Below are positions 18,101-47,766 of a DNA stretch of 48,338 bases, in pieces. Within the stretch, counting starts at the first letter, position 1; every line of letters starts with the position of its first letter. This stretch comes from Saccoglossus kowalevskii (lineage: Eukaryota > Hemichordata > Enteropneusta > Harrimaniidae), in contig NW_003111976.1 in assembly GCF_000003605.2 (NCBI RefSeq), positions 102,938 to 151,275 on the forward strand, given 5' to 3'. The translations under genes were made by a program, and so were the position numbers. The notes beneath the pieces were generated by a model, which worked only from the letters and a program-made list of their open reading frames with translations, was not told the DNA's origin and did no database searches.

Positions 18101-21100
18101 AACAAATTACAACGTTTGCCGACAAAAAAGGAATCATTGGGTATCCCATATATCATTTGATAAATTATCGGTAAAATTGAGTCAGTATAAAATTATTAAG
18201 TTTATGATAAGCTAGAGTTAGTATTTACGCATTGTGTTCAAGTTGCTGTTAAGAGATTAAAATGTGATGCTGCATGTCAGTAAGGCGTGGAATTAAAATA
18301 AGGGTGGAAAATGACTGGTGAGGTCACATGAATAAGGTGAAAGGTCAAGTATGAAAGGTTAACGGCAGTTACGCAGTCTACCATGTGTGTGCGGAAGAGT
18401 TACAAAACATTTCTGGACAATGATTCAAAGCAAAAACACTGCTTTGTTTTTATTACCCAGTGTCACGCATGCAACCCAGTGGACATGCACAATAAAACAC
18501 AAAACCCTATATATCATGAGATGCCCTGATAATGAAATAAACATACCAATACCGTATATACATGGATAATAAATACAGGTATGCAAATATAAAGCAAAGG
18601 AGAGGTATTCCAACCCACACCTTAAAAATTTTAAAATAAATAAACAGTTCATGAGGAGGGATACTTGAAAAATATGGCTGACCCACTTAAGCGGCACGCC
18701 CACCCAGTGCCACAAAATGTGACCAGCGTAAGAGATAGGAAATCACAGATACACCATTAGCAGTGGGACAAAGTTGAGCGACAAGCACCTATTAAAAAAC
18801 ACCTTCCCAAATGGTTTGAAAATTCCACCTGTTGTAAATGAGCCGTGCCTTGAATCGACGGACTCTCATGTAACGGGGGATTAACACTGTGTCCACTTGA
18901 TTGCAACAATACATATAGACACACTACAACAACATTCCTAGGTAACATTCAAGGCAGCCTAATGGAACAGATTGGTAAATGTTTCTCTTTTGAAATTTAT
19001 ACGAGCCACCTGATTTAACCTTTTGTACACCAAATTTAAAAAAATAAATAAACCTAATCACATAAAAGAAATTAATTTTTGTTCCAAAATTTCAAGAAGT
19101 ATAGCCAGAGGGAAATTAAAAAAAATACATAACAAATGTTCAAAAAATTTTGATATTTTGGTGCAAAAAATATGTTGTTCAAAAAGTTAATACTAATTTC
19201 TTTTCATTTCCAATTTGTATTTTATCATTTGAATAATGACTGCCTTGTTTGAATTCTATTCAACAGGTGGAATAATTTTCTAAAGCACCAAGGCAACACC
19301 GCTTCCCCATATATGTATGACATAAAAAATTATTAACGCATGCACAGAGTTTGTTGACCTTTATCCCACGTAAAAAATAATATTCAGCATGCAGAAAAAG
19401 AAAGTCACAATTGATCAGCTGCTGGGAAGAGCTCCAAATAATTTATAATAATTTTCAGACAAAAAAATACTCTTTTTAGAAGAAAAGAATTTTAAATTTA
19501 TATTTTTTTTTATTTTTTGAAAAAATATTTAATGAATATCAAAATTTGAGCACAAATTTTATTTAAAAGTTTATTGCATAGAAAAGGAATGTTAAGAGCA
19601 AATAAAGAGAAAGAATGTAGGTAGGACGAGAGAAGAATAAAACCGATGTATTCATCTTGGTTCTGCGGAAGAGGAAGTTTGGGTTCAATCCACACCCAGG
19701 TTGACGACACATGTACACGTTTACTGAAGACAGGTGGTGAAAACATTGAATTGTCACACAGAGACAATAACAGAGCTACTAATAAAGACCCATCACCATA
19801 GTAGCTACAAACAATTTTGCAAGCAATTTAAAAAAAATATTTTTCATCATTGCTCAAAATTTTTAAAAAAAATTTGATTATTTTTGTGTTTTTATAATTT
19901 AAAGTTTAAGTCAAATAAATTAATATTATTACGAGCTCTTCCCTTCTTGAACTAAAAGCAAGTAGAAATTAAAGGTGAATACAGCTACTGCAGTTTGCTG
20001 GATGATAACCTTATGGGACAAAATACACTATTATCAACATTACGAGAAAGACATTCAAGTAAGCAAGTGTGTTGATTCTGATCAGCCCTGTGATATCATG
20101 TCACTATTAGAATTATTGGAGAAGAGTACTTTCAAACAAACTAATTGTGAAGTGTCTCCTGTATTATGATCCATTAATTTGTGTGTTAAATAATATTGTT
20201 ATATTTTTATGGGGATAATTTAGATTTTTTTTTTATGTACTTTGTACCCATATGTTATCAACCACTTTTTGACAGTATCTGCATGAGTGGGGGTCACGCA
20301 AACCTTTCACAAGAGGACGGAGATCGGCAGAACATGACGCTTCTCCAGATAAATTGACAGCTTTCACAGTATACGTCCCAATATCATCCACGTTAGCATC
20401 ATTTAAAATTAACGTATGCCCTCCTTGATTGTCCGCATAAAACACAAAGCGGTTATTGGTGAGAATTTCAACCCCATTTCTGTACCATGTCACTTCAGGT
20501 GTAGGGTCTCCAACAACTTTGCAATCAAACTGTGCAATATCTCCATTGCTTAACTCAGTATCTAGAATCTCAATAATAAATTGTGGGGCAACTCCTCCCC
20601 GTCTGCGTTTATCATTATCCGTTTCCGTGGTACCCGAATTGCGTTCATTTAACTCCAAGCACACAGGGTTACTTCGAAAATATTCCACGGTGACTTCTTC
20701 AATTGGAGACGTTGCTTGTTCTTCATCTAACTGTATTTCCATGCAAATACCCTTCATGATTAAAGGCATTTCAGTGAGGTCCACATCCAAGGGTTCCAAC
20801 GTTAACTTCCCACAGCTGGAACGTTTCTGCTGGTTTTTGACACCAACAGATGCCTCTTTATTCTGAGGCTCAGTAGCAGAGGTCAAACATTGCTGCCTAG
20901 GGGGCACAGTTGATGTTTTAGAACGAGTTAAAGTGTCCGCCCATACTGAAGGCTCAAAAGCCAAATGTTCACGGTTAGGTATGCCATAAATCTCAGGTGA
21001 GCATTGGGACAAAACTTCTAAAATAAACAAAATTCTTGTTGAGAAAGGCTACAACGAATCAACACACTTGTATTATGGAGGGGGAAAAAATACAGAATAT

Positions 21101-24100
21101 TTCCCAGCCTTCCATTCACCTATTTTTACAAAAAATTCCAAGGAGACAGAAGTAAGGAGCTTTACCGATAACAAATACCAAGACACAGAGGAAAAGGTGT
21201 GTCAGTGTGGTGTTAAAGTGCCACACACCATAAGTGAAGTGATGTGATAAGGTGTAGTAGGCATGCAATGCAACAAGTGAAACTGACAACCCAAGGTGAA
21301 ATCAATATGCAATCTTCAGTTTGTCAAAGAAAAAAAGTAAACAAAATAATCAATGGGTTATGTAATATATAAACTGAAAAAAACAGCTGGTATTTTAAGA
21401 GATAATACTCCAGCCAGGAAGGACAATATGTTTATTTAGTCTCTCTCCACAAATATTGATTATTTCATACAGAAAAGTCTTTAGTTAAAGTCAGAATCAG
21501 AGGGTCTATGCCAAAATAAAAAAATAAAAAAATATTTTAATAAAGTAGTTTTGATACTACAGAATTCTACTTTTCAAGGGAGACGAAAAATAGGTTTTGC
21601 AGAATTCATGCAATTTGGGAAAAGTTGTGGAAGTTTTCTACTCTATAATTGATTGTAACTATTTATTGCTAAGACAGGTTTTACAGTGAAAAGAAATAGC
21701 ATCCGTTACCTGTTTACTGCATGCTTCCTAAAATTCAAACCGACATTCACCGCCACAAAGACACCATCGTACAAAGTCAATATGACACATAATGCACCAT
21801 TAAAATAACTCATGCCAAATTCACCCCCACATTCAAACCAAAGAGTTCACCATATTGTTAAACACACCATATCACATTCACACTGCCTCCATTTATGTAT
21901 TTCAAATATTAAATGTTGTGTGTGAATTTGTAAATGCTTCTATTGAAAGTCAATTCCAGATTATATAAACAGCCAAAAATTAAAAAAACATTCACAGATA
22001 TTTTTATCTCTATGAAAAATATTAAAAAATTCATGTTGTTGCTTTGATCTGAATTTAATAATACACTTTTTCAAAAAATAAATTGAGATTTGGGAAATAT
22101 TCGTTGTTCTATCACCATGACACACAAGCAATTGACAAATATGGGAAGACAATAAGAGACAAATGAGCTTACCAAGTTCCTTGAGGTCTTTCTTGATCTC
22201 TTCAGCCCCTGGGGCATTTTCTTTATCTTTGAGCAGGTCTTCTCCAAGTGCCTTCATGTCATCAACTTTGCCAGATTTGGCATCCAAATCTTTTTGAAGT
22301 GCCTACAAATACGCAACAATTACAAATTATTATTTTCTTGATTTTAAATTTGTTCCAAAGATATAATTTTATTTTTCACAACCACAAAATACCTGACAAA
22401 TTACGATTCAGAATAACACTGATAGAGTGAGTTTATCAGTGGCAACCAATCACAGTGTATGTTTCAAACAATTCAGCTAATCAGATTTAAGATTTTATTT
22501 TACCTTCTGTTGTTTGAGCTGTTTCTTGACATCGTCAGCAGAAGCTGCAACAGGTTCTTGACTGTCAATGTCTGCCTCCATTTTGTCCATCCAGCCCATT
22601 AACTCTTTCATTTCCTCCTTCAGATGGTCAGACTTCTTAAAGTTGCTGTCAAGTTCTTGTTGACGGTCCTTCAATTTCTCACCGAGGTCATCATAGCGAT
22701 CATTGATTTGGTTCAGTTGCTTCTGTACTTCTGATGTTTCTGTGGAGGAAATAAACATTTAATGTTTAATTGTTGGCAAATGACAAACAAAGAGAATGTC
22801 ATCAAAATTCAGATTGATTTTTAGTTTGGTGACAACAAATTTTTACCTTCAGTGGCAAATGGAGCGCTGTCAAGTTGATCTGATGCACGTCTTCCTAGTT
22901 TCTTCTCGGGACTACCTTGCTGAGCGGCTAATATGGCAGCTCGAGATCGTTTCCTTGGAGATGCAGTTGGAGAGGGAGCATCATCCTCCTGGTTGAGCTT
23001 GTTGATAGCATTGCCAAGGTCGTTGACTTCTTCAATCGTAGGGTGGTATTTACCATGATCATCGCTGATTGGCTGAAACAGAAAATTATTGTAAATATGT
23101 AAGTTGATACTATGAACCAAAACGATAAACGTCTTTCAACTTGTCACACTTCGGATCAATTACACCAACCTGGACCAAAAATTTCGACAAAGTATGGAAT
23201 GGTTAAAGCAACAACAACCACCTTACCTTCAAGCCCTCGAGTTCTTGCTTCAATAATTCTACATCCACAGCAACAGGTTTCAACTCTTCAACCTTTTTCT
23301 CCATTCCATCCAACCAATCCAAGACAGCTTTAGTCGCGTCATTGTATTTCTCATAAGCAGCCTGCTTATCGTTCAGTTGTTTGTTCCTTTCATAAAAAGA
23401 TAATATATATTATTCATGATTCATCTGATTTTTTATAGCTATACTTTTCTGCTTAAAAACATGTAAAAATATATTGTGTTCTTAAACTAATTTTTAAATT
23501 ATGAGCCTTTTCACCATTTTCAAAATGGCCGCTGGAATTATGTGTCCTGTTGGGAAAATACAAAATAGCTGTTGAATATTGTACACTATGGGAAATTACA
23601 AAATGACCACTAGAATATTGTTCACTATGGGAATTATAATTGGCTACTGAAATATTGTACACTATGGGAAATTACAAAATGACCACTAGAATATTGTTCA
23701 CCATGGGAATTATAATTGGCTACTGAAATATTGTACACTATGGGTAAATTACAAAATGGGCGCCACAGTTGGATTTTATCATCTAAACAATTAATTTTAA
23801 ATATTTTTGAAAGTGTTTGAACATCCATGAAAGTCATTACAGAATGCCTCAACAAAGATTAATAATAGTTATAACACATTAAGAGATTTTTATTATTCTA
23901 AAGTCACTGCTTTTGTCATCTCCTTAGAATTCTCTTTCTACTTTCACTGCACAAGCAGTCAAAAGAAATCAACAAACAACAGTTAAGAATAATAAATTAA
24001 TACATGTAGTAAAGATTCCATTGATGACAAATAATGTACCTTAAAATCAGAGATTTATTTTGAATGAGTGCTCAAAATATATTCTTACCTCTTATCTAAT

Positions 24101-27100
24101 AGATCTTCTAGCGAGCTCCAGTTTTTGTTCAAATTATCTAAAACATCTTTTACTTGAGAGGTATCAGAGAGTTTAGGATCTTTTACCAGCTCCTCACCAA
24201 GCTTCTGGATATCAGTGTACTTTGGACGGTTTTCATCTAAGTTGGCAGAGATTTCCTGTAATGTGCAATAGTCAAAAAAACAGGTTATTAACCTCTTGAA
24301 CTTTAATTGTCTATTACCTTGGTGCGTGCGGGTGTCAAAATTATACAATCGTTATTACCAGACAGGTCAGTATTGGCAAAGTGTAAATACTGTAATGAAT
24401 TAATTCTGTTTCCACTTTGATAACCTTTGGGTATTTAAACTCAACACATCAGACACATATCTTCACTACCTATCAGCAGCATAATAGCAGTTCTCTGGTT
24501 ACATATCAGCCACTGTTTCTACAACAACTACCTGTCACTGACTAGAACTTTTGACCTATATTAAATCCTACAAAAGGCTGTTCTCTTTTATCAAAAAAAG
24601 GGGACGTGCTGCACGCCCCCCGGGGTTAGCATACATGAGAGCAATTCCTAATGACGCATGTAGCTGGTTACGCTAATACTTTAGCATACCCGGACAAGAA
24701 TTTTGAAAAAGATATTGAAAGATATGTGAACACCTGTATAAGAAACTCGTCTCAGATTTGTACATTCTTTATGCCTTGCAAGATACTTTAACCCAACAAT
24801 TCCCAGACGGAGTTGTAAATGAAGAAATATACAACAGACGGATTAATTACATGGCAGAAAAAATCAAAATCATAAAACTAAGGGGTATTGGGTGATTGAT
24901 TAGTTATGGTTGGATACTGCAACTGATTATGGTCAGTGTAATGATGCATGATGGGTAGGAAGTGAAATAAAATATATGATGTTATGGAACAGTGAATACA
25001 TTGTAGTTTAGAATCATAGATATTCCTGCTGGAGGGAATTTGCTAGTGCAGTCACCACAATTAAAAATTAAATACCGACTGAATCATTCAAGAAAATGGC
25101 AACAGCTTACCAATAACTTGCTACCGAGAGCCAACAGCTCCATGGTAGCCAGATCTTTCGATTCCAATGTTTCAAGCGTCGGCAACACAAAGTCTTCCAG
25201 TTCATCAACCTTCTCCAAGAAATGATCCAGTTTTTCTTGGACACCTTGAAGGTAATTACCATGATCTTTGGTTTTATCAGAGACATCACCAAATCTTTTG
25301 TTGAGGTCATCAAGTTTGTCTTTGACCACCCTGGCGACCGACGGCTCACTGTCTTTGATCAACTCGCTAGCTGACTTATTAATGGCGTCAACGCTCGGTT
25401 TGTGGCTATCAAGATCAGATTGCAATACCTAAAAAACAGAAAAGACAAATAAAATAAATGGTCTAGGAATGTCATTGGGAATTTTTTTTTATTTTTGTTA
25501 AGTTTGGGAAAACCCAACACTCCACTGACTTTAAAAAAAAAAGTTTTTGACATTACAAAATATTTTATTGTTATTAGGAATTTCAATCATTTTTATAACC
25601 AGCAATTATCGACAAGAATACAGCCAACACTTAGTTGACCTTTAAACCTAAATTAAATAATTTCATAACACAAGTGTTTACATAAACCTTTATGACATTT
25701 TAAACAGCAAATAAGAAATGTGAAATTTACATGGTTGTAATAAAGGTGTTATCTATTTACCTATCTATAAACACTAAATCAACAATTTTGACAAGAGCTC
25801 AAAACTGGGTCACTATTTAAAAGGTCATACAAAGAGGATGGCGAGTGTATTTTTTTTTCTTTTTTCTTTTTTTTTATATATTTTGTTGCTGTTCCGATGG
25901 CTTAATAAATATTATTATTATTATTATACACAGAAAGGAGTCTCCACTGTCTCAAACTTTTGACTGATTAACATGTTTCTAAAACCTCGCATAACTAGAT
26001 GATAACTCTCCCATGAACTAGTCTGAATGAAGTTACAAGTGTTCCTTCTACACTGTCCATTGGTGTGCATCGATTGCTCGTTTTGTAGAACCAGGATTGT
26101 TTTGCTAATTGTACCGTCTACTGATTTCCAGCCAAGCAGATTATAAAATACAAAAGGCTAAATACAAAAGACTTAAAATCGGATAGTTTGTCTTCAATAA
26201 ACACACCACCAATTAACATGTACAAGTAATATTGTTGCTAATACTTTTATGTTACACACTAGAAATTTCACTCGTTTTCTGATTTAATTTTATTCGTAAC
26301 CATTCCTTTCCATCTTTGTATTAAAGGTTAATAAAGATTAATGTGTTTATCTTTTATTCCTTTGCCATTCTGCAAAATTTCTTGACAATTTCTTGTAATA
26401 ATTTTATGCAGTATTTAAAATTACTAATAGTTATAATCAACTATACATCTTTCTGCTTAAATCATTTAATGAACCAAATCTTCTTTATTAAAAGTATTCA
26501 TTTTCACAAGTCAATGTTAATATTTTGACATTTTCAGCACATCAATTGAATTTTTACTTTTACAGACTTTTTAAGCAAACTATATAAGTTTATTAGGTGT
26601 AAACAGTTATAATGTAGACTGTTTATATGGATTTAAAATTTCCAGAATTCACTTATCAGCGAAAATAACTAAAAAATAGATAAATTCTGGTAACAAATTA
26701 TTGTGTTTAAAATACCTTGATTTCGCTCTGTTTGTCCACCAATGAATCTTTTTTAGCGTCAATGGGCGATTCAGTGATCTTATCAAGTTTCTTTTCAGTG
26801 TCGTCCAACCATGTTAGTAAAGCCTCGATTCCATCTTGTACGCCCTGAGACTGCGTCAATGCAGTCTGTAGAGTGTTACTTCTATCCGTTGCCATGGCGA
26901 TAAGATCTTTGTATTTCTCTTCAGTATCATCTAGGAAAGACCAAATTCAAATTTGTAGATTGCAATTATATTTCCCACCATGTTGGAGGTACCGGTAATA
27001 AGTTTGAAAAGCATTAAATAAGAAAAGTTTATTTTTGTTGTTCAAAGAAATACCAATCAGATTTTATTATTATTTTTGAATGATTTTTTTTTTCATTTTC

Positions 27101-30100
27101 TAATTGTGTACTGACCTGTTGTATTCTGTACTTCGTCTTTACGTTCTGGTTGACTCTCAATCAAATCTTTTCCAGTATCTTTTACTTTCTCAACGTCTTT
27201 GCCGTGTGTCGCTAAATCGCTCAGCATTGCCTTTATGAGACAAAAATAACAGTATATTTATATTTGCCCTCAAATAACATGATTTTCATGATGAAAACAA
27301 TCAATTTATTGTCAGCACGTACCTTGACCTTGTCAACTTGCTTTTGAACCACCTTTGGCTCTGCACCGACTGGTTCTTCCAAAACCTTTTTCAACTCCTC
27401 CTCTGTCTGCTGCAACCATGGCAACACATTATCCAGAGCTTCTTGGTATTTCTTCCCCTTGTTGTCAATCGCCTTCAATTTGCTCACAAGGTCCTTGCAG
27501 TTGGTTTTCAGTTTCTTGTATCGTTCATTGATGTCGTTCACTCGGTTTTTAAGCAGGCTAGTCTCTGGTGCCTCAGTGAAATTTTTAGTGAAAGATTTCG
27601 GGATCTTGTTGGTTCGGAATTCTGACAGTTCACTCTTGTATTCCTGAAAAAATAAATATAAATCACTTTTAATAAAATTTCACCCATGTTTTACTGTAAG
27701 AATTTAACAACTGACTTGAGTCAAAAATAACCATTTTCATTTTATTTCCCACTTAATTCCTAATGCTTTTTGTCTTTGGTAGTAATGGCAAGTGCATGTG
27801 CAAACTAGTCTCACAAACTTAATATTGTGTGTTAGTTGGTTGGCAAGGCAGACTGTACTCTGATTTATTCTGCTGCATAAACAGTTGGATCCAAGAATCA
27901 AACACACAACCGCCTTGATGTGAGGTACAATGTACTGTAATCACCTAAATGAATCAAGTTTTAAATTTGTTTTTAATTTTTCAGTTGAGTATAATACTAC
28001 TATAACTAGTTTAATTTCACGACAGTAGAATTTTCACAAATTTCAGGTAGAAGTTAAGAAGATCCGTAAGACAGCGAAATTTAGTTCTCACGAATTACAA
28101 AAATCCATTGTGACAAAAATGAACTTCAACGTTCACAAATTATAGGAGGCAGGATTTCTAAATTTTTTACCTTGCTGTTCTCCATGAACTTTTGACCTGA
28201 CATATTGACAAATCGGAGCTCTGCTTTGTGAGAGATGATATCTTCTTCTACATCAACCAGGTTTTCTCGTTGGTCTTTAAGTTTGTCAGACTCTTTGGGA
28301 ATGTTAGTCGAGAATTTTATCAACGCATCTTCTGTGGCTGCGAGCCATTCCTCAAACGGAACCACTTCATCGGTGAACTTTTCTAATTCATCCACGGCGG
28401 TGTTGAGTTTTTTGACTCTCATAGTGGATTGCGTTGTGAGAACTTCGTAGCGTGTCGTCAATTCATTGATGTTTACTTGTAGCCTGCTTTTGTCGTCTTC
28501 TGGTATTTTCTTTCCTTTAGTATCAATCAGTTTCTCTGCGTTTCTCACAGCTTGCTGAATTGGTTGTTGATGAGTGTTGACATCATCATATACATTCTTG
28601 AAGAAAAAAATTGAAATCAGTTTGTCAGGTAATCAATCAATCATACATATTTCACTCAATTTTTTAAAGGTCCAAATCCATTTTTGTCAAAATTAATATT
28701 TTTTCAAGACATGCAGCAAATGGGAAATGTCTATTTGGAAATGATCCAAAATATAAATACAACTTTGAAAAATGTTGGTGCAAAAGACATCTCAAAATAG
28801 ACAGACTGACAGACAGACAGACTGACTGTGGCATAAGCTCCCGGGGAAAAAAAATTGCTTAAATAAAGTAATTCAAATTTTAACCTTAATTTTGAACAAA
28901 TTTTGTTCTACAAAATAATTGCAACGAATTCTTTGACCACATAAATTTATCTAAAGTAAAAGGTGACACATGTAAATATAAACACGAAATGATAAATATG
29001 CTGGCATGGTATTAGTTAATTTATGGAATAAGGTTGCATGGAGGCATTAATATCATTTTAAATAACAAAGAACTTAAATTTGCAGAGCCCTTTGTTAGGC
29101 TTAGTCTTGTTACAGGGATGTATGGGGCTATTGTTAAATTAGTTTTGACAAAGAGAGCACCTGTTGTCATGACATAATAAGTGTTAAAATGCTAAATAAC
29201 GATGAAATATTCATACAATATGTTGACAGCCAAGTGTAATTATATCTTTTGCTACATTTTTTTGAAGGAAGTAAAGAATTGCAAGTGGAAATATTTACTG
29301 GTTCTAACAACCTTGGATTTACTGGTTGTCATGGCAATTTAGCTCAATATCATAAAACGTAAATGAGACACTACCCAGCTGTGCATTTTATTTTATTTTA
29401 TTTTATTTTAAATTTTCTTTTTTTATTACACCATTAAGGGAACATTTGAAATTAGCTGTTTTTTTAAAAAAAAAAAGTAAATAATTAAAAATAAGGGGAA
29501 CAAAAATACTGACAGGAAACTGATACCCATGAATTAATTCATACCTTGTTTTCCTTCAGTTGGTCAGATAATGGTGTTATTTCCTCTAGCAACGGCTGCT
29601 GGAATCCAAGTCGTTTCTCTGTTGCTACAATCCACTCCAGCAAATCGTGAATCGCTGCGGCATCCTCGGCATACTTCTTTTGGACGGCATCCTAATACGA
29701 TGAAAAATAAAATTAAAACAGTCAGCGTTGAAAGGACACACCCATGGCTGGGTGATGAACTATATCGGTCAAAATTTGTCCTACTCACGTAGCGTGATAA
29801 ACTGAAACGGTTGTTGGCATTAGAAGCAGTAAAGACGCGTTCCTGATGGTGACAGTTATAATGGAGTCTGCCACAGACACAATATAATATTACAGCGTTT
29901 TGCACATGTCGCTTCTATACCACATACAGATTCCTAATTATATATGTGTAAATTTGCACATCTTTGAGTGTATCACGCTAATAACCGCCACTATATCGTT
30001 GGTACAATCGGCAACGTACAAACAGTTGAAATATTTGCATATTAATTATAATTTTTAAAAAAAGATAATGTCCACCCGGTTGTTGTAACACCGAAGTATG

Positions 30101-33100
30101 TACAATATGGAGGTAGCTAGATGACCCTTGACCTGTCTCATTAGCATAATGAGTCATCATAACATCAGCAGGCCACTTTAAATGTATTTGACAAATTATC
30201 GGAGAGCATGATGTAACATGTGGCTTCATAACAAAACGACAGATGTATCAATATTTAATATTCCGGTGCGGTCAAATATCGGCTACTTCAACATTATAAT
30301 AAAATATCTGATTACAAAAAGAATTTATTTAAATTGAAATATAAATATCAAAACTATATCTCACAACAGCCTTAAAGCAAAATTTGTATAGACTTAATAT
30401 TATGATGATGTAAATCTAAATCTAAAATAAATTACTATATTTATTAATTTCCAATATAATTTTTCAACAAGATTAGTTTAATTTGACAATTTCATTTGTA
30501 TATTCTGTGAATGAATGGAATTAATTTTTAGCATCTTGTTTTGAAAATCAATACAGATGACAGTTTACCACTTGGCGATGATTTGAAACAAATACTGTAT
30601 ATACACACTGATACCATTAATTGCAAGAATGTTGAATATTTTTAGCAAATTAGCAGCTAAATATATATTACAAAAGATAATATTGCAATGAATATCACAC
30701 TTCTCAGTTAATTAATTAAAATTTTAAAAATCAAATTCAAAGTTTAAAAAAAAAAAAAACATTTAGTGAACCACTAAAATTGTTGCGATTATGTATACAT
30801 GAATACTCTCAGACATGATCGACTATTTATGTCACTATGGCAACCGATAATTCCATCCTGTTCTCCGTAATGTCACTTGTACCAAATATTCCCACAGGAT
30901 AAACAATTCACTACAGAAACCAATCAGACTTGCCTTCATTAGGCCGCAAGCGCAAAAGGCCTTGTACTTTTTCATCTTGACCACGGCCGGCAGTCACGCA
31001 ACATCCAATAAATCACTCCATCATCGCGTCCAGTCAGAAAAAACGTGAAACATTTAAACATCTCGCCTTCCCTAGTGAAGTGCCTAACGCGATCTAAAAA
31101 TATCTATCCCGATGTGATGGAGTCACATCATTTTTTGTGACAAATATGCAGGTACGGACAAGAGGACAATCACACTGGCATCAATTCCCCCTCAATAATG
31201 ATATTTAAATATAGATTCAAAGCTTAACATTGTTAATACAAAGCAGCTGACCTATGTGGGCATATTGCATGCATAATTATTCAGAAGCCCCAAAAAATTA
31301 ACAGCTGTTGAAAAATCAAAAAATATCAGACAAATATTAAAATAATTACAACACAGATGGAACTAAATATTGCAGTAATATCAGTTAAATTATTTATATT
31401 TAGTTACATAATGTCATAATTATTAAATGTTTTTTAATTGCTTTTTCAGTGGCTAAAATTTGTTTACATAACTTATTTGCATAATTTATGTTAATTATTC
31501 ATAGGGTAAAGGTCAAATACCCCTATCACCATTCCATCCATCAGCATTTATTGAACACATTGTTTGTAACATGTATTTGTCCTAATTGAATAACTACATT
31601 ATATATAACCGGTATGCAAATTTTGTCAGGTGATTCATCTCAACTGATTTTATACTTATTTTTCAGTAACATTTAAATTATTATTTAGACTATGGTATGG
31701 ATCCCTGAAACTCCATTTATGAATATAATTTTTTTTTAAATTTTGCTTACAAAAATAAATTATTTTAGTTCGAACTGATTTAAATACACCACACAATTCA
31801 GGTAAATTATCTAAAGAACTGTCCATGATTGTTTATAAAATGTCAGATTTTACTGAATTTATATTATTTTTTTTTAAATCAATAAATTCTAACTAAATTG
31901 TAAATAGGTCAACAGCTGGAATGACATACTTACAATGTTGTCTCCCTTTTTTGGGTAACGTTGATAAAATAGTGATTTAATACTAAGTACACATTATGTT
32001 TGTACATGCATTAAAGCTAGAATTAATTTATTTATTATAATTTTTCTTAACCAGTAACAAAATAGAATTCCATGTTTTTTTACTGATAATGAATTATAAA
32101 CACAATATCTAAAATAATTTTAATTGACTCATCTTGTCACTACAAATACAATAATACTTTCACTCACCTTCTCAGCTTTTTCTTTTTCAAGCTGCGCAAG
32201 CGTTGATTGCAGATCTTTTAGCCTTTCCTTAGCCTTCGAAGATACATCATCAAAGCCATTTCTCAAATCATTGATTTTCTTCTGCAAGTCTTCTTTCTGA
32301 TCGGCTGTTAATTTATCTTGGTTGTCTGTCAAGAACTGCTCAGCCGCTTTCAGGGCATCAGTAATCGGTTGCTTGTGCTCGGCAGTGTCATCAACGAGAG
32401 GCTGCAATATAAAGAAAAGGTACATTGAAATATCTAGACTCGATATCAAATTCGGCGTTGAGTCGTGAGAAATGCGCATGTGCGGCATATCGTTCTTGAA
32501 ATTAAAAACATCTGTCGCTGCATGTGCACATGACCCTCATGATCAGTTCATTAATGAATCTAATAATTAATTAAAATTTAATTACAATATTAGGTTACGC
32601 AATAATCTAATGAATCAATGACAAAGTAGCATTTCACCAAAACGTGAAAATGGTGGTCAGAAAGAGCTGAGATGAGATGAGAAAAAAATAGGTTGCGACA
32701 AGAAAGGGACAAATATCACTCTTAATGGGATGATATTAATATATATCAAATGAAATAAATCTTATTTTCAATTGAATGATAATAAGCAGACCACCTGTCA
32801 CACAATGCAGTATGTTTCAATCTTACACTTAACTGCCCATATTGAATGCCCCCAGCTGACCAGCAGAGATTTCAGACTAAACATCATTGTTGTAAATCAA
32901 TGTCAAACACTGCATGAAATATTTTTCACACACAGGCAGACTCATCATGAATTATATGCGGTTGAATGCGATTTTCAGACAAAGTCGCAAATTATGTTTT
33001 CTGTTGGCAGGTCTGTCACATGTTAAAGTTGAAAATTACAGAAATTAAGACTTTTGTAAAGTTGGTTATTCAAACATCTTTGCCCACCACCTCAAATTTT

Positions 33101-36100
33101 TTTATTTTTTCAAATTTTTCAAATCTAAAAAATATCTAACATTAGGTGAATAAATCTTTCAAAGTCAAGTTTATTTTAAGAGGCGAAATATCTATATTTT
33201 GTTCCCAAATTTCATACGAGTATTCCCTGATATATACGTCTCAATAGTACACCATCCCAATTTTTATAAATGGGACACTGTCTGGAAAATCATGCACAAT
33301 CACACATGCATGCAAAGCTTGTTTAGCAACTCTAATTATTTGTATGATGTGTTTCATGCTGATTTATTCATGACATTTATCATTTAGATAAACCTTCCAT
33401 CTATCACAGTCAAACTTTAGTTACCAAACTCTAATTTGTTTACTGAGCTAAATCTGTTTGGATAATATACAAGTTTTGAGTTCCGCCATTACATTAGGTG
33501 CTTTTGTATAAAAATGTTCCAATTTTGTCTGCATGGGGAGGTTAATTTCACATTTCGTTGATTTTTTAATACTAGTAGTACAAGCCAAATAAAAATCTGA
33601 GATCTATGAAAACTGTTCACATGACGTTACTTACTGTATATTCACTTTTGATAATACGAACATAGTAAAATTTACCTTGTGTTCGTTCAATTGTTCGGTA
33701 ACTGGTTCAAGTTCACTTGCGATTGGTTCTTGAGACTCCAGCCTCTCGCCCATATCTATTACCCAGTCGAGCAAGCCTTGTACGGCCCCAGTCTTGTCGT
33801 TGAGCTCTGATACCAAACCAAGACTTCCTTCCAATTCTTTCTGCCTATCATCCAATGCTTTGATCAGTTTATCGAAACGGTCGTTGACAGCCGTGACTTG
33901 CTTTGTCACGTCAGAAGGTTCTAGAAAACATCAAATACAAGTTTACTCAACAGTTCCTTGGTTACTATGTTACTTTTCACATTTTTATGTATTTTCTATA
34001 CTTTTTTGTTTAATATTGTATCCCCCTTTTGTAAATGTGTGAGGTACCCTGACTGATATATATACAATCAAATGTTGAGATTTGCAAATATTCACATAGT
34101 TAGGGGGCTTTGTTTGTCTTTAAAGGTCAGTATACATTGTAAATATTTTTGTCGAAAGGATAAGGACCCTGTAGTACTCTTGAGAAATGAGAAAGTGAGG
34201 GCAGGATATTCACTTCTCATACCGGTATATTTTTCAGATAAAATAACATCATTTTATGTTCTTAGCTTGTTATAGGATGTTTTACATATTTGCAAAGTAA
34301 GAATCAATTTTTGGACCCAAAAATATAATTTTCCACTGACAGGTATGTTCAGTAAAATATGGAAATTTTTATGTAAAGCTTACCTTGTAAGAAATCACTT
34401 GGCACGCCTTGGTCAGACATCCTCCTGATTCTCTTTCGTTCTTCTGGTTTCTTAGCAACCTCTTCATCTTCTGGTGAGACAATTTCTGAGCTTCGCTTTG
34501 GTTTAGCTGCTTCCTTCTCTGCAGGTGTTAATACAACAGGTACTACAGCATTGAGTGCCTCCAGCTCAAGACCAAGTTCAGTGACATTCTCAATGTCTGG
34601 CCTCAAATCTTCTAGTTCATTTTTGATTGGCTGAAATGAAATAGGTTACATGGTCCATTAAAGTTGTATTTGCAAGTAAATTAGTAGAGACATACTTTTG
34701 AATTCCGTTCACAATTTCCACATTTTGATGTTTTCTTTTGTTCAAAATTACATAAAATTGATTCATGGGTATTCACTCCTAGTTTTTAATAATTGAGAAA
34801 TCATAACAAAATGAAAATAAATCAGTTTTTTTTAAGTTGTTTTTTAATACCTGTTGTTCCTCAAGTTGTGATTTGAGTGTTTTGATGTCTTTAGCAACAG
34901 GCTCCAGATCACCAACACGGTCCTCTACAGCATCCAAGAAATCTGACGCTTCTCTGATAGCAGCAATAAACTTCTCATGTGCTTTCTGTCTTTCATCAAG
35001 TTGTTTATTTCTGTAATAAAATCACCCAATTAAGTTTTGGAGAGATGCACCAGATATAAGTTTAAATAATTAAATTTTTATTTTATTATAATGCATCAAA
35101 TGTCAAGTTACGCTTGGACTGTATAGTTATCAAAAGTAAGCTGTGCTTGACAAAAACACGAACAGTTGGACGACAAGATGGAAAATGCACAGTTACTTAC
35201 CTCTTGTTGATGCCATCTTGTAATGCCTGCCAGTTTTTATTTACATTCTCTACAACTTCAGAGACTTTAGAGGTGTCTGCAGCCTGGGGGTCAGTAATCA
35301 ACTCACGGGATAGTTCTTTGATGTGGCTGAAAGTTGGTTTGTAGTCCTCGGTCTCACTAGCCACTTCCTATTGGTGGAAAAAAGTTTGAATATGTTCAGA
35401 GAAAAATTTACCATACACACAAGACAACAGTAAGCACAAGAGGAAGAATACTCAACAGCTTCTTTCCATAATACTCCCCTGCCTTACCACAACCTTTTTT
35501 GTCAACTTAAATAAAAGTTTTCATGATCTCCTGAATGAAATATCTGCTTTAATCTGAAAAGTTTATTTTTCCAGATCACATTTTGATTTGAGGGAGACTG
35601 AAGCCAAATTCTTGCCAAAATGTTAATAAACAAGTACATGTTATATTTAGTAGTGCTTTTACCAGAAGTTGGGTTCCAAGCTGAAGCAATTCCATCTTGT
35701 CCATCTCGTGGGAGTCCAGTGTTTCCAACGTTGGGATGAGCCAGTCTTCTAGATTGTCCACCTCATCTAAGAAGTCGTTCAATCGATCATGCAGACTCTG
35801 GAAATACTCTCCACACTCACTAACGGTGTCAGATGCTTTCCCGAATCGACTGTGCAAATCGTCCAACTTTTCTTGAACTGCGTGTGCGACAGAAGTATCA
35901 CTGACGGTGATGAGTTTTGTTGCCGACATGTTTACTGTCTCAATGCTTGGTTTGTGACTTCCAAGTTCACTGTACAACAGCTGTGAAAAAAGATTATATT
36001 TCAAGAAATGAAATAATGATAGCGAGTAATAAGAAAATGAAAGCCACTTTTGAAACAGTTTGTCCTTCTAAACACCTGATGTTTCCTCACTGTAAACATT

Positions 36101-39100
36101 TTGCTTTTAACAGTATTTTTCATCAACACAGCAATATTGGATATGTTTGGTTCAACATTTAAAAGAAAAACAAAAATTTTATTTAAAGCTATCCATGAAG
36201 AAGTCGAAAATGTAAAACGTTGAAGCGGACGACAGGCAATCACTCATATGATAAGCTCTGCTCAATAAAGTCAACAGCGGAGATAAAAATGTTTCAAAAA
36301 TTTCCCTAAAATAGTTGCGAGGAAATGACAAATGTCAACGTTACCTTTTGCTTTTGCATGATGTTTCTGAGTTCCTCCTTCTGTACAATCATTGGAGTAT
36401 GGAATTCCAGATTGTCCACTTTGGGTTCAAACTCATCCAGCCAATTGAGAAGAGCATCCAATCCATCCTGGACACTCTGAGACTGTGTGAGGGCAGTCTG
36501 CAAGGCATTGTTTCTGTCCTTGGCTTGTGTCTCTAATTTGCTGTATTTATCACTCACTTCATCTGTGGGAAACCAGAAAAAAAACAAATACATGTCATGA
36601 TGTCTAATCAGTTGTCTAAGATTGAGGAAATTAGAATCCCATGGATATAACCCAAGTTTAGAACTCCCGCTGACATTTGGAATTTAAAGTATCTCATAAA
36701 ACAGCCTTGTATCAAATTCACATGCATGTTTTTAAAAGATAAAAATGCATGAAAAGGGTTCAACACTAAAGACATTCCTAGATAAAAATAAATATATAGA
36801 ACATAAAGCACTTATGAAAAAAAAAGATTTTTCAAAATGGTGGTATGAGGGCGCTGTAATAATTAGTGACAGTTATATCAAATTAGTAGATCAAATAATA
36901 TATCAAAAACATGCCAGAGATTATGACCACCATAAATATATATACAAACCAACTCACCAAGCATTTTCTCAACTTCTTCCTTCATTTCTGGTTGTGTCTC
37001 TATTATTTCTTTGCCATTAGATTTTAATTTTTCTACATCTCTATTGTGGCTGTTGATATCATCTTGAAGTGCCTGGGGAGACGAATAAAACATGATTAAT
37101 TGTTGTAAATAATTACATTCAATTATTCCCTTCAAAATATCAACTGCAATTGATGAATTTGTCTACACTAATTCTGATACAGACTTCACAAACCTTGAGT
37201 TTATCAATCTGAGATTGGACAAGATCAGGTTCAGCACCAATCGACTCTTTCATCAATTTCGTCATTTCTGCGTCTGTTTTCTCCAACCACGGTAGCAGGT
37301 CATCCAGAGTGCCCTGATACTTCTGGTGCTTGTCCAGAAGATCCTTCAAGGTTTCAGTATGCTGTGTACCCTTGGCCTTCAGCTTGTTATACCTGTCGTT
37401 CATGTCAGTCAGTCTGTTCTTTGTGATGCTGGTTTCTGGAGTTTCCACAAAGTCTTTAGCTTGTTGCTTTGGTAGACTGGTGTTGCGGAAGTCAGCCAAG
37501 TCCTTCTTGAATTCCTGCAATACACCAAGTGAGTGAAATTTTTGTCATTATCACTTTTTTCTCAAAAATGATGCAATGATCTGATGCAAATTACATCTTT
37601 TTACTTACTTTGGCAGTTTCTATAAGGATCATCTCCATGACTACAACCTACAATATGCAAATCTTTTTACTTACCTTGGCGGTTTCTAAGAATTGATGAC
37701 CAGACATATTGATAAACTTCAGATCGGCTTTGTGGTCGATGACTTCCTCTGTGAATGTCTTCAACTCTTTATTCTGGTCCTTCAAGACATCTCGGTCCTT
37801 CCCGACATCAGAAATAAGTTTATCCAGTGCCTTCTCACATTGAGTCAGCCATTCTGTGAAAGTCGACGACTCGACCTCAAACTTTTTGACTTCCTCGACT
37901 GACGTCTTCAGACGTTTAACTCTAGTTTCAGTTTGGATGATGAGCACGTCGTACCTAGTCTTCAGACCAGACACACATTCTTCTAGCTTGTTCTTCTGTG
38001 GTTCTTCAAGTTTGCTGCCCTCTGTAGCTAACAGGGTTTGAGCTGCCTGCAGAGTTACTATTACAGGTCGCTGGTGATCGGTAACATCATCTTGGATTGT
38101 CTGAAAAAAAAACACAATAAATTATTCAGATGAACTGTTGAAATCAAAAATAATAATTGATTTCCTTAAATGTTATTTTTTATTTGGAAAAACTTGATAA
38201 CATTTTTAGGTGCAATCTATATCATATATAATATTGGTTCCCCATTAACTTTAATAACTAAGAAAAAGAATGAAAATTATGTACAAAAAAGTTATAAAGT
38301 ACATCATAGACTAACCTTGTTCTTATCGAGTTGTTCTGTTAATTGTTTGGGTATTTCTTTCATTGGTTGTTGCTCTCCAAGTTTGGTTTCAGTCTCCGTC
38401 ACCCACTGCAGCATGTCTTGAATTGTTGAGTTCTGTTCTGTGAACTTTTCATCCAATGCGGCCTGAAAACAATACAAAAGTAGAAACTTGAAATGAGTGG
38501 GTGAAGAATTTTAAATAATATACTGTTATATTCTTTCAAGTTCAACAATTCCCCCCACAAACATTTATACATTTTCTCCAGCTTTTGTTTTCCTGTTTCC
38601 CAGCAACCATTCATTCATCCTCGTTTCACTTTAAATAATAAAGAATATAACCAAAACTCACTTTCTCAGCTTCCTCTTTCTGCAGCCTATCAAGTGTCTC
38701 TTGCAGTTGTTTCAACCTGTCATGTGACCTGTCACTGACATCATCATATCCATCTTTTACATCATCTATTAGTTTCTGCAAGTCTGCAATTTCTTCTGGT
38801 TTCAGTTTGTCTTTGTTTTCTTTCAAGAACTCTTCAGCTGACTTGGTGGACTCGGCCACTGGAGACTTGTGATCAGTGATGTCATCAGCAAGTTTCTGTG
38901 TGATAGTAAGGGGAAATCAGAGTTTAGATGTAATGCTGCCCTCTACATTCAAAATGTAGAAATACTGATGAGGGCGCTATAGCAAATCAATGACTTTCTC
39001 AGAAATACATTTATAATACAGGATAGATATCAATTTTATGATGTGCACAGTTCCAAATGAAAAAATTTGAATTTCTAAATAATATTCTTGGAGACAGAGC

Positions 39101-42100
39101 CATGTCACTGAATGTTCTATGTTGCTAAGACGCACACCACTGTCAACGTATTTCTATGGGCTCTGTGGAACGCTAACAAGGAGCCGATGAAAACAGCTAA
39201 AGTGAAGAAAACAACACAAATTCAACTGTGAGAAAACCAAAAAAACCAGGGGTAATCTTGTTATACTGTTTAGGACAGTCTCAATAACCATCCCAAAGTA
39301 CCACTTTTAGAGAGCTTTCAAACGTTGCTTTCACTAGACATATATAAAGTAAGAAAATGACTGCACCAAAATGTGGCCGAGAAAAATTATGCCAATCAAA
39401 GGTTTAGGAACACAATCCTCCAAGAAAAGGTGACGATGAAAACAATGACAGATATAAACTTTTTTTTTTTGCATTTTGAGAAAGTTAAAAACTATTTTAT
39501 TACCTTTTGATCATCAAGCTGTGCAGTAACTGGGGAGACGTCCTGACTCACAGGTGATTGTGATCGCAGTTGCTCTTTGACCTCTTCAACCCATTCCAGT
39601 ATCGGCTGTAATTTATCAGTCTTATCGGTCAATCCCTTCATGAGATCTCGTGTCTTGGCCAACTCATTCTGTCGGTCTGCTAACTTATCAGCTAAGGTAC
39701 TGTAACGTCCAACGACATCATTTGTCTTTTTCTGAGATTCTGATGGTCCTGAAAACAAGTATAAAACAGTGCAGGTTTTACCGTTAATTTAATTATATTA
39801 AAAGTTTCACAAGAAGAGTTGTACCCAAATACCCAAACATTTTCTTTGAAAATAAAAACATTCAAAATAACACTTGTATGCCCCCACCTTTATAATACTG
39901 CCAACTCCAGGCAATTTCTAGAATATTAACTCTTGGATTGAATGAATTCTCTCAAGTTTGACATATAACTTACAACATAAGCATAGTATGGATGTACATT
40001 GTTTCAGTGGACCACTCCCATAATATGGGCAAGGTTCATTGCAAAACACAATATTTTTCACAAAAACGCTTACCAGTGAGAAGGTCACTTGGTACAACCC
40101 GATCAGACAGTCGTCTACCAGCTGGGTGTTTCTTTTCTGATGGTTTTTCAGGTCCAATATCTCTCGACCTCAGTCGTTCTGGAACAGCCTTCATCTCTTC
40201 ATCTGGCTTGGTGAGGGCATCAAGAGCTTTACAAAGTTCCTGGACTTCATCAACTTTGGGTTTGAGGTCATCAATGTCTTTCTGGATGGGCTGTGAGCAC
40301 GAAAAATGAATCATCAATAAATAACAACACATGTATAATTATATTTTAAATTAAATAAAATAAATAATTTAGTATTTTTTACAACTAAGTAACTATTAAT
40401 AAATTGGTGCCAATATAATAAGAAACATTTATTGTTTTGGGCAACATTGTCAAGATACAATTGCAATGAAACAATATTATGCAAATTAAGCTAATTAATA
40501 TACATACATTCTGGGGAAAACAAGGGACAACCTATTTCATGCACTCACCATTTGCTCATCAATCTGGTCATCTAGTTTCTTCACATCTCTGGTGACAGGC
40601 TTCAAATGATCCACCTTGTGTTCAATCTTATCTAACTCATCGCCAGTGGCTTTAACACACTTGCTGAACTCTGCATGGGCGTCTTCACGTTCGCCAAGCT
40701 GCTGGTTTCGTTTCTTCAGAGCATCCTCAAGATCCTTCCAATTCTTTTTGACATTCTTAACCACAGCCTCCACTTGACTCTTGTCCTTGGATTTGGGATC
40801 TTTGAGTAGTTCCTCGGCGAGTTTTTCAACATTCTCGAAGATTGGTTCATTCTCATCTTTCTGGTTGCCAAATTGCTGCAATAATAATAAAGTGATAACA
40901 AGTTGATGAAAGTTAAATTCACTGCTCGTTAGTTGTTAAATACAAACATTGTTTGATACAGCCCGACCGATCGACCGACCCACTCCCACAATAAATACAT
41001 TTGACTTTTTAGCATATACGTCATAACTAGTCATGACAGTTCAGAGGTCATCGACGAACTAATCTGAATATTTACCAGTAAAGTGGCTCCCATCTCAACC
41101 AGCTCCATACGATCCATATCAGGTGAATCTAGCGTTTCCAGCACAGGGATCATCCAATCATCCAGCTTATCAACTTGTTCCAAGAAATCTATCAGTTTAT
41201 CAGTCACATCTTGCAAATAACCACCCTTATCTTTAGCAGCGTCGGCAGCTTTCGTGTATCTTTTATTCAAATCATCAAGTTTGTCCTGCACGATTTTACC
41301 GACTGATGGTTCACTGTCTTTGATGAGTTTGTCTGCTGAAGTGTTAACCGAGTCCACGCTGGGTTTATGATTGTCGATGTCCGTAATTACAACCTGCAGG
41401 AAATAAATATGATTTATTAGAAACAAATATTCGTAAGTTTAGAATGGTGTAGGTCATCAAAATAAGGTCTAATTTCTAAAAATAATAATTTAAAATCACA
41501 GCATGATTGAACTTTTTACTATACAGATCACATAGTAACATAGTTAAGCTCCTTATGTACACATGTACAAGTACCAATCTCTCAATATTGGCTAAATTGC
41601 ATTTAGTGATAAAATACTGTAAATCGATTTATTTTCGCAAATTCCGTGAAATAGCGAAAATCACGAAATTGTGTAGTAGTGAAGGTGTCCCACAACATAG
41701 AGTGTACGTGACTTTTGCAAAATTTTATTCTCACAAACAATAAATAATCCACAATAAACGGTTTATAGTATACAAAATCAAAACCGATTTGTACCTTCAC
41801 GTCTTGTAACTGTCCGTGTAATACCTCTTTGTCAACGTCCACATCCTTGGCATTGATTTTCTCAATTTTGGGTTCGACTTCATCCAGCCAAGACAGCAGG
41901 CCGTCTAAACCATCTTGTACACCCTGGGACTGTGTGAGGGCAGTCTGCAAAGCATTGTTCCTCTCAGACAATTTATCCTTCAGGTTATTGTACTTGCCAA
42001 CAGCATCACCTAAATCAGATATAATGACTTTTTAGAATTGCATGACATGGAGTATTAGTAAAAAGTGTGAGACTAAAGTGAAAGGTTTGAAATTTTACAA

Positions 42101-45100
42101 TTCAAATTCCCACCATTTTGTCGGTTGGAACAAAAATCATTATGAATTTAGATTCTCACCAAAGAAGCGGTGAGAATTTAGATTTTTGCCAATTGATAAC
42201 TAAGAATAAAAATTCTCACTCATGTCAATAATATCAAGTCTTGCTAAACTGTGAGAATGTGTTTCAATCTAGTCTCACACTTTTGACTTGCACTAATAAA
42301 GAATCATGGATTCATCTATTTTTTCAAGTATAAATAAAACAACAGAAGCTATTTTTAAAAACTTACCAACAGTCTTATCAGTTTGGGGTTTAAGCTCTGG
42401 TTGTGTTTCGCCAAGATCTTTCCCGGTTTCTTTGAGTTTGTCAATGTTCTTTGCTTGAGACACTGTCTCTTCAGTCACAGGCTGGAGAAAAAAAAAATAT
42501 CGTAAATATGGATTGCTGAAAATCATGTCTCTCTCTTCTTCACAAGAATTTTTTTTTTTTTGTGCTGTCATTGTTATTGTCATCATCAACTTAGTAAAGT
42601 CAACTCTACCTTCAGTTTCTCAATTTGCTCTTTTACAACATCAGGTTCTGCTCCAACTGGTTGTTCCAGTTGCTCAGCAACAACAGCTTCAGCCTCCAGT
42701 AACCACGGCAATAGGGAATCTAACTCATCCTTGTAGTTCTTGTGTTTTTCTTTCAGTTCTTTCATCTTCTGTTCATGTTGGACACCTTGTGCCTTGAGTT
42801 TGTCATATCGGTCACTCAAACTGACCAGCCTGTTTTTGATAATGCTTGACTCTGGTGTCTCATGGAAGTCTTTGTTGAATTGAGCTGGGAGTGCGTCAGT
42901 ACGGAAGTCAGCAAGCAAAACTTTGTATTCCTGCAATAAAAGTCATATGTTTTGATGAAATAAAATCTTTGTTTTTAAAAATATTTACTTTTCATACTCC
43001 ACAGGTATGCAATATACAGAACATTGGCATATTAGTATTAAATTTGTTTTTTCAATGAAAAGATTTTAATTCTAACTAATTTCTGATATCTTAATATTTA
43101 CAAGGTCATTAATTCATAAATCTTTGAGAAAAGGATGGAAGGGTAAACTTTTTTCTTCCAGTAAAAATTACCTTCGCATGTTCCAAGAATTTCAGACCAG
43201 ACATGGAGATGAATTTCAGCTCTGGTTTGTGTTCGGCAACATCCTCATTAAAAGTCTTCATCTGGTCGGTTTGTTTTCGCACTGTGGGGTTATCTTTGCC
43301 AACATCCTTCATCAGTGCATGCAAGGTCTGCTCAGATCGAGACAACCATGTCTCAAAGGTAACATACTCATGTTCAAATTTCTGCAGCTCATCCACCGAC
43401 GAGTCCAGTTGCTTGACTCTTGATTCTGATTGGTTATTGATTTTATCATAGCGTTTATGTACATCCTTAATTGTACTGTCCAGTTTGGTTTTCTCGTCTG
43501 GTGACAGTTTATCTGCATGTGTCACCAACAAAACTTGAGCACTCTGAGTTGATATCACAAGGGGCTGTTGGTGGGCGAGTACATCATCGCGAATCGTCTG
43601 AAAAAATTTTTTTAAAAATTTAAAAAAAAAATGACAAACATAGTAAAACTTTATTTTGCAAAAATGATAAAAACATAGAATATCATTATCAGAAACCCAA
43701 AACAAATGAACAGCTTATGCAACAAATCATACAGACATCCATTCACAATTTACCTCATACTCATTTACAAATTACCCAACATGCATGCTTACCTTATTCT
43801 CAACATCCTGTTCCTTCAACGGTTTAAGATCTTCAGATGCTGGTTGCTGAGAACCAAGTTTCTCTTCTGTTTTCTGAATCCAATCTAGTATATCTTGCAC
43901 AGCGGTGATCTGTTCTGTGTATTTCTGTTCCATTGCAGCCTGAATATCACACAAAAAAAACATAGTGAATTTAAAACAGCTTTGCCCATTCTATGAATTA
44001 CTTTCACTCCTGCTAGGAAGCACAGTTCAATTGACAGGCATTTGATTACTCCAGCACACTCTCACAGCTATTTTAACATATAGTACTAGTATACTCATAA
44101 ATTGTTTTACAGTAAAAAATTTCGCAACATGATGAAGGGAATTATCTGAAAAATTAACTGGTTGATGAAATACATCCATCAATTCTATCTTGTTTTCATC
44201 ATGCGTTCTCAAAGAAATTTCACCAAATTCTCTGCATTACCTTCTCTGCCTGATCTTTTTCCAGATAATCGAGTGTCTGCTGCAGATGTCGCATTCTTTC
44301 GAGTGATTTCGCACTCACATCATCATATTTATCCTTCAAATCATCTTTCATTTTCTCAACTTCAGCCTGTTGCTCTGGTGTCAGTTTATCTTTGTTGTCT
44401 CTCAGGAACTGCTCAGCATCTTTAAGAACATCACTGAGAGGAGATTTATGTGTCTGTATGTCCTCCTGAATGTCCTGTAGAAACAGAAATCAAACCATGT
44501 TTAGAAATTTCAAAATTATACTGATACTTTTTGAAAATTATTATGATCAAGGTCAAAGAGCAGTTTCTTGCAAAAAAAAACGATTGATTAAAAAAATGAT
44601 GTAAATAAGCTTTGTAAATAATAAATATGCATACTACACAGATTCACAAATTCACAGATTTAACTAGTCTATAAAAAGCTAATTATTAAACACAATTTAA
44701 GACCTACCTTCTGATCAACAAGCTGTTCTTTGAGTGGTTCTATTTTATTTCTTTTAATTGGTTCTTGTGATGTCAGTTTCTCGTCTACCTTGTCTACCCA
44801 GTCTATCAATGGTTTCAGCTTCTCCTCTGTGTCTGTAATTGCCTTCACAGTCTCCAGTGTGTCTTCCAACTCTTTTTGTCGATCAGCCAACTTATCACTG
44901 ATGTCACCATAGCGACCACTGACTTCGTCACTTTTTCTTTGAACAAGCGATGGGCCTGAAAGTTCAGAAGAGATAAATAAATCAGTATGTGCAGAGAAAA
45001 ATAAATCCGTATGTGCAGAGAAAAATATAAAATAATTTGTGATTATTCAATGAGACAATATTAAACGCCATTAATTTTAGAGTCAAGTTCTCACCCATAA

Positions 45101-47766: not shown

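Follow-up and report, generated by a model that had tools for sequence, protein, structure and literature searches.

The DNA analysed here appears to encode a section of a spectraplakin rod that grew by repeated tandem duplication of a genomic block encoding seven spectrin repeats; the copies are old and held under purifying selection, and more of them are present on a second contig, C1470. To this reading we assign a probability of roughly 85%. The window, which is the whole stretch that was analysed (G000:C598:102938-151275), comprises the last 48,338 bases of the 151,275-base contig C598; the assembly behind the genome-wide searches amounts to 572 Mb in 4,830 contigs. The gene lies on the minus strand, and its 5' side leaves contig C598 at the end of the window. 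The most upstream block, designated cassette 1, is therefore merely the first one that is visible.

Four cassettes were modelled on the minus strand by dynamic programming, with acceptor and donor sites picked by score under phase continuity and with exon core peptides hand-picked from the open frames. The resulting model comprises 39 exons in one frame, that is, exons a to k three times followed by a to g, with equal exon phases among the window copies and no stop codon in the joined frame of the four window cassettes. The cassettes are 858, 855, 866, and 479 amino acids long, giving a total of 3,058 amino acids. Cassette 1 (42610-47766; window positions and the minus strand apply unless stated otherwise), which contains seven spectrin repeats according to both the splice model and Pfam, consists of exons a (47652-47766), b (47036-47250), c (46424-46741), d (46081-46247), e (45797-45956), f (45164-45386), g (44708-44955), h (44241-44474), i (43793-43939), j (43172-43597), and k (42610-42930). 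Cassette 2 (37194-42481) is composed of ten exons, namely a (42367-42481), b (41795-42009), c (41076-41393), a fused d+e exon (40549-40875), f (40074-40290), g (39504-39748), h (38662-38895), i (38316-38462), j (37675-38100), and k (37194-37514). Cassette 3 (27323-37072), the introns of which are enlarged, contains exons a (36958-37072), b (36345-36562), c (35663-35980), d (35201-35367), e (34851-35010), f (34384-34630), g (33676-33920), h (32168-32401), i (29545-29691), j (28171-28596), and k (27323-27643), and cassette 4 (22504-27230) is limited to exons a (27116-27230), b (26716-26930), c (25111-25428), d (24089-24255), e (23227-23386), f (22847-23072), and g (22504-22739).

Introns of the array span 92 to 2,476 bases, those between exon k and the following exon a measuring 92-128 bases between window cassettes, and the cassettes succeed each other with start-to-start periods of 5,285, 5,409, and 9,842 bases. 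The initial annotation had described eleven-exon cassettes recurring about every 5.2 kb, in three full copies and a truncated fourth. The recurring order of a to k with matching lengths and phases is borne out by the splice model; eleven exons were found in cassettes 1 and 3 but not in cassette 2, the period fits the first two intervals but not the third of 9.8 kb, and the copy count is correct for the window but describes only what is visible, the window stopping at the end of C598. That the cassettes might belong to separate genes, a possibility raised at the same time, appears unlikely, because their exons join up on a single strand with consistent phase; they would be joined in a single transcript.

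Eight of the eleven exon types (a, c, d, e, h, i, j, and k) have a constant length in all window copies, if the fused exon of cassette 2 is counted as 167 + 160 nucleotides. Exons a and c measure 115 and 318 nucleotides, respectively, in all four window cassettes, d and e measure 167 and 160 nucleotides in cassettes 1, 3, and 4 and correspond to the single 327-nucleotide exon of cassette 2, and exons h (234), i (147), j (426), and k (321 nucleotides) are identical in length in three out of three window copies each. The remaining types vary between cassettes 1 to 4 by up to 3 nucleotides in exon b (215/215/218/215), up to 30 in exon f (223/217/247/226), and up to 12 in exon g (248/245/245/236). 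The d/e intron is missing in cassette 2 (40549-40875) alone and is kept in cassettes 1, 3, and 4 as well as in the block on C1470; this is a case of intron loss after duplication.

On the protein level, repeat A of a cassette is encoded by exons a+b (330-333 nucleotides), B by c (318), C by d+e (327), D by f+g (462-492), E by h+i (381), F by j (426), and G by k (321), with every repeat boundary lying in phase 0, and the visible array amounts to 25 repeats in the window (7+7+7+4). Whole-cassette scans of cassettes 1 and 2 yielded Pfam Spectrin in seven (E 1e-49) and six stretches (E 2.2e-40), respectively, and a search with cassette 1 returned dystrophin as the top solved-structure match (E 5.6e-33) among the five matches listed. 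An all-against-all BLASTP comparison was made with 43 repeats, of which 32 are of cassette type, from five cassettes including that of C1470, and 11 are taken from the rod behind the array. The set excludes the second copies of j and k and the single isolated i of C1470, along with the less certain downstream repeats. The best match was of the same type for all 32 cassette repeats. In the tree of the 43 repeats, for which the bootstrap is not fully settled and the deep branches are weak, each of the seven repeat types forms one clade (supports 97-100 / 91-100; recovered in 95-100% of the bootstrap trees), and the 11 downstream repeats fall outside these seven clades; a tree by exon type had been proposed in the initial annotation as a check. 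An origin of the seven-type block order by chance can thus be regarded as ruled out. Together with the exon lengths and phases, the single clade per repeat type bears out the earlier proposal that a seven-repeat genomic block underwent segmental duplication. In a tree of the five a-g blocks, cassettes 1 and 2 group together (98/97), and the second internal branch is without resolution. A structure prediction for exon j, calculated from five sequences, gave three helices with a pLDDT of 76 and a pTM of 0.40; this being only moderate confidence, it was set aside as evidence for the fold.

The age of the copies was assessed over exons a-g (473-481 aligned codons) by comparing the four window cassettes in all six pairs. 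These pairs are 40-46% identical in protein and 54-61, 68-73, and 34-37% identical at codon positions 1, 2, and 3, respectively; fourfold sites are 31-44% identical, dN is 0.46-0.55, and dS has a value for a single pair (3.4) and is undefined for the other five. Because silent sites are saturated and protein identity has fallen to this level, the duplications are old, and the window cassettes are best read as old copies under purifying selection. The placing of the duplication in "this lineage" by the initial annotation and its contrast with vertebrate MACF1 find no support in such values, which come from one animal; its hand alignment of exon c between cassettes 2 and 4 (61 identical residues out of 106) is consistent with the computed 58%. 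Homologous introns between cassettes were considered and rejected, there being only five short matches (20-29 bases, E 0.005-0.009) and not one between same-position introns; the earlier statement that the introns differ holds. It follows from this divergence that the cassettes have next to no probability of being assembly duplicates or haplotypes, a reading that could draw on two short intronic tandem duplications (14261-14476, 108 bases, 97% alike; 23575-23726, 76 bases, 99% alike) and on a pair of j exons of C1470 with 95% identity, but that is at odds with 40-46% protein identity over a-g, with introns having nothing in common beyond the short matches, and with the lack of one intron in cassette 2. 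For the four window cassettes, assembly duplication was rejected on these grounds.

The gene is identified as a predicted spectraplakin of the MACF1/dystonin/Shot type from the domains that lie beyond the array on C598, in the same orientation. Downstream of the window, a frame at C598:92755 (minus) matches Pfam EF-hand_7 (3.8e-10) and is also over the cut-off for EF-hand_1, this frame being one EF-hand exon, half of the pair; GAS2 exceeds its Pfam cut-off at C598:88229-88357 (minus), with a match that overruns the exon into one TAG and with the frame alone giving 5e-20. The spectraplakin order of EF hands and then GAS2 was thus found on C598, and so was a dystrophin-like spectrin-repeat rod, as seen from the Pfam Spectrin stretches and the dystrophin structure match; the assignment of the array to a spectraplakin rod in the initial annotation thereby stands. 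A tail frame on C598 containing GRTNIELRERF is also present, which we take to resemble the end of MACF1 and dystonin. Nesprin and dystrophin were raised as candidates by the Pfam and solved-structure matches: Spectrin_SYNE1 is just over its cut-off in cassette 1 (36.5 versus 35) and just under in cassette 2 (34.7), and Spectrin_Anc-1, a family of KASH proteins, is just over in cassette 2 (33.8 versus 33.2) and well under in cassette 1 (18.4). Both were dropped, since EF-hand and GAS2 sequences follow. The N-terminal half of the gene was not found, its predicted tandem CH actin-binding domain lying beyond the end of C598, and the plakin SH3 family PF17902 gave no match in this genome and likewise none in 14 control genomes, so that this search is uninformative. 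By eye, further spectrin-like frames are seen on the same strand of C598 downstream of the window. The region of C598 at about 46000-71000 (loci L010-L012) shows, also by eye, scavenger-receptor, WSC, CUB, and CCP-like frames in two similar sets, as well as retroelement-like frames near 68-70 kb.

The copy number given by the initial annotation is too low, for C1470 adds another a-i block as well as two incomplete ones. In the part of this 45,966-base contig that was examined, exons follow each other on the minus strand in the order j, k, i, j, k, a, b, c, d, e, f, g, h, i. Their lengths are 115 (a), 218 (b), 303 (c), 167 (d), 160 (e), 214 (f), 245 (g), 234 (h), 147 (both i), 426 (both j), and 321 and 267 nucleotides (k), and they match those of the window except for c, one k, and the types that are variable anyway. 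At the DNA level, the two j exons share 95% identity, and blastn aligns the surrounding region (41529-45966 of C1470; loci L018 and L019) as tandem duplicates that include intron DNA and are 86-87% alike, one copy apparently being split by an insertion; the j-pair duplication would reflect either a more recent duplication of this type or a local assembly artefact. Whole-cassette searches, in which the best 53 of 84 and the best 53 of 64 candidates from the examined part of the genome were scored, returned at least 42 and at least 39 matches, both being lower bounds, and all of these lie on C598 or C1470 except a weak one on C4441 (E 7.8e-6). The query of the search with at least 39 matches was c0X, a composite of the C1470 a-i block joined to the preceding j and k, which was also used in a companion to the five-block tree.

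C1470 probably represents a more upstream portion of this gene. That it might instead derive from a second, broken or partial spectraplakin copy is an improbable explanation, in favour of which its divergence, its irregular order (j, k, i, j, k), the shortened k exon, and the lack of the D motif described below can be cited. By exon type, protein identity to the window is only 18-47%, a range that predates the hand-set 160 nucleotides of C1470 exon e and enters the 130-nucleotide exon behind the array as 'h' of cassette 4; over a-g, the blocks are 29-36% identical to those of the window. On the other hand, exons a-i of C1470 are open and mostly of window-like lengths, its strand and orientation would suit an upstream neighbour, and GAS2 was found in the examined part of the genome in three matches at just two loci, C598 and C177, the latter of which looks, by eye, like a GAS2-like gene and not a spectraplakin. 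If C1470 is accordingly placed upstream, the junction with C598 would be out of the ordinary, spanning at least 572 bases before cassette 1 versus 92-128 bases for the k-a introns elsewhere; a profile search of the window found no repeat-like frame in the bases preceding cassette 1.

Behind the array, the rod continues with a 130-nucleotide exon (22173-22302, minus, phases 0-1) that encodes the first half of a spectrin repeat. According to a profile search, a fitting frame for the second half is located about 6.5 kb further on (open frame 15721-15269). Inside this intron of about 6.5 kb, which appears to split one spectrin repeat, lies an exon-like frame for an I-set immunoglobulin domain (20266-20945, minus; Pfam 8.4e-21). 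The splice model at first placed this frame in the rod with a poor donor score, and it was rejected in favour of the frame at 15721-15269 as the better partner; the immunoglobulin exon may be optional. The remaining rod in the window (487-13713, minus) consists of spectrin repeats of about 110 amino acids on one or two exons, and by hand count about 14 further repeats follow the 25 of the array. A minisatellite with a 103-base period (7161-8078) is situated in an intron and just touches a spectrin-repeat exon (7204-6992). A dispersed repeat is present in two 171-base copies (16968-17138 and 17512-17682, 87% alike), and a 54-base piece of it occurs at 46894-46947 in the intron between exons b and c of cassette 1. 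Elsewhere in the assembly, the mitochondrial contig C4830 (17,037 bases) carries a COX1 with nine in-frame TGA codons. Of the ten ATA codons of this COX1, five align, as judged by eye, with isoleucine in mouse-type or bovine COX1 and one with methionine, the others meeting valine, leucine, or no residue; its only AAA codon aligns with lysine, and AGA occupies expected serine positions in CYTB and ND1. Such a code, along with the gene order, weakly suggests a hemichordate-like deuterostome, and no other conclusion depends on this.

Repeat D carries an insert of variable length, the terminal stretch of exon f, that contains the motif R[RK]xSD[QR] in all four window cassettes, as RKSSDQ (cassette 1, exon f, 45164-45386, minus), RRLSDR, RRMSDQ, and RRASDQ, respectively. 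The motif occurs once per window cassette and nowhere else in the 3,058 amino acids, and in three of the four cassettes it is followed by [VI]PSD. It is absent from the 601 amino acids of the C1470 a-i block, the exon f of which has KRSSS instead. Shuffling gave 0.0004-0.0012 per insert, with the copies treated as independent, though they are related, and shows only that the motif is not a product of composition. We take R[RK]xSD[QR] to resemble the PKA consensus. The flexible-looking insert, with its basic, phosphosite-like motif, is a candidate for a regular hinge or point of regulation. A more speculative and rather doubtful extension is that the rod constitutes a periodic polymer of a seven-repeat super-repeat, with no fewer than five a-g blocks spread across two contigs and ongoing turnover at its upstream end, on which a kinase could act every 860 residues or so at this motif of the window blocks, thereby adjusting the linker's length, stiffness, or partner binding one block at a time.

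As to the mechanism, the seven-repeat block A-G was duplicated in tandem more than once as genomic DNA. Since the repeat boundaries coincide with phase-0 introns, unequal crossing over between such introns could add or remove whole repeats with the frame left intact. Each added block would extend the rod as a spacer, setting the actin-binding N-terminus further from the microtubule-binding EF-GAS2 end, and the block copies would multiply the binding sites along this spacer. It is possible, though on balance doubtful, that the block array is ancestral in the spectraplakins of many animals, in which case this lineage would show nothing special and vertebrates, if they have fewer copies, would have lost them. 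With silent sites saturated, the duplications may precede the phyla; vertebrate MACF1 would, according to the initial annotation, have the a-g block just once, which would speak against an ancestral array. Long rods do exist elsewhere, as exemplified by a silkworm spectraplakin with 34 spectrin repeats (PMC12193018), but this number is below the 25 array plus about 14 further repeats of the window, with the reservation that a count from annotation and one made by hand can be compared only loosely, Pfam detecting six of the seven repeats in cassette 2.

Repeated tandem duplication of the seven-repeat block in a spectraplakin rod remains the preferred reading. It would indicate how far the distance between actin and microtubules can be stretched in a spectraplakin, by means of a fixed seven-repeat block and not of single repeats, with the internal order of the block being preserved even past the saturation of silent sites. 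It now becomes testable whether rod length or block content is what matters, and whether the repeated insert site serves as a regulatory point. From such an array it is also evident that fragmented assemblies undercount structures of this kind.

Summarizing the relation to known systems, MACF1, dystonin, Shot, and VAB-10 likewise possess a rod of dystrophin-like spectrin repeats with an EF hand and GAS2 behind it. For MACF1, the repeats are described as dystrophin-like and as binding many signalling proteins (PMC8012552), and the rod of Shot, though dispensable for one localisation, influences actin-binding specificity (PMC11058685). Three complete and one partial seven-repeat block in tandem were encountered only here, the literature searched, as excerpted, containing no mention of such an array in spectraplakins. 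Nesprins (SYNE1, Msp300) are similar in their long spectrin-repeat rods, with 54 repeats in a silkworm protein of this type (PMC12193018), and in the borderline Spectrin_SYNE1 and Spectrin_Anc-1 matches obtained here, but differ in that EF-hand and GAS2 sequences follow the rod in the present gene. The nearest precedent for the block duplication is ANC-1 of C. elegans, a giant cytoskeletal linker with six tandem repeats of 903 residues that are almost 100% conserved in nucleotides (PMC8139857). Its unit is close in size to the 855-866 amino acids found here; however, ANC-1 is a KASH protein with near-identical copies, whereas the present cassettes are 40-46% identical in protein, contain many introns, and are followed by EF-hand and GAS2. 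In spectrins, the rod has grown by intragenic duplication of spectrin repeats (PMC9145010), and the likeness extends to the spectrin/dystrophin type of rod, albeit with a duplicated unit that here consists of seven repeats in a fixed order of types. Block duplication in a spectrin-repeat rod is a mechanism of a known type, notable here for the block size and the copy number.
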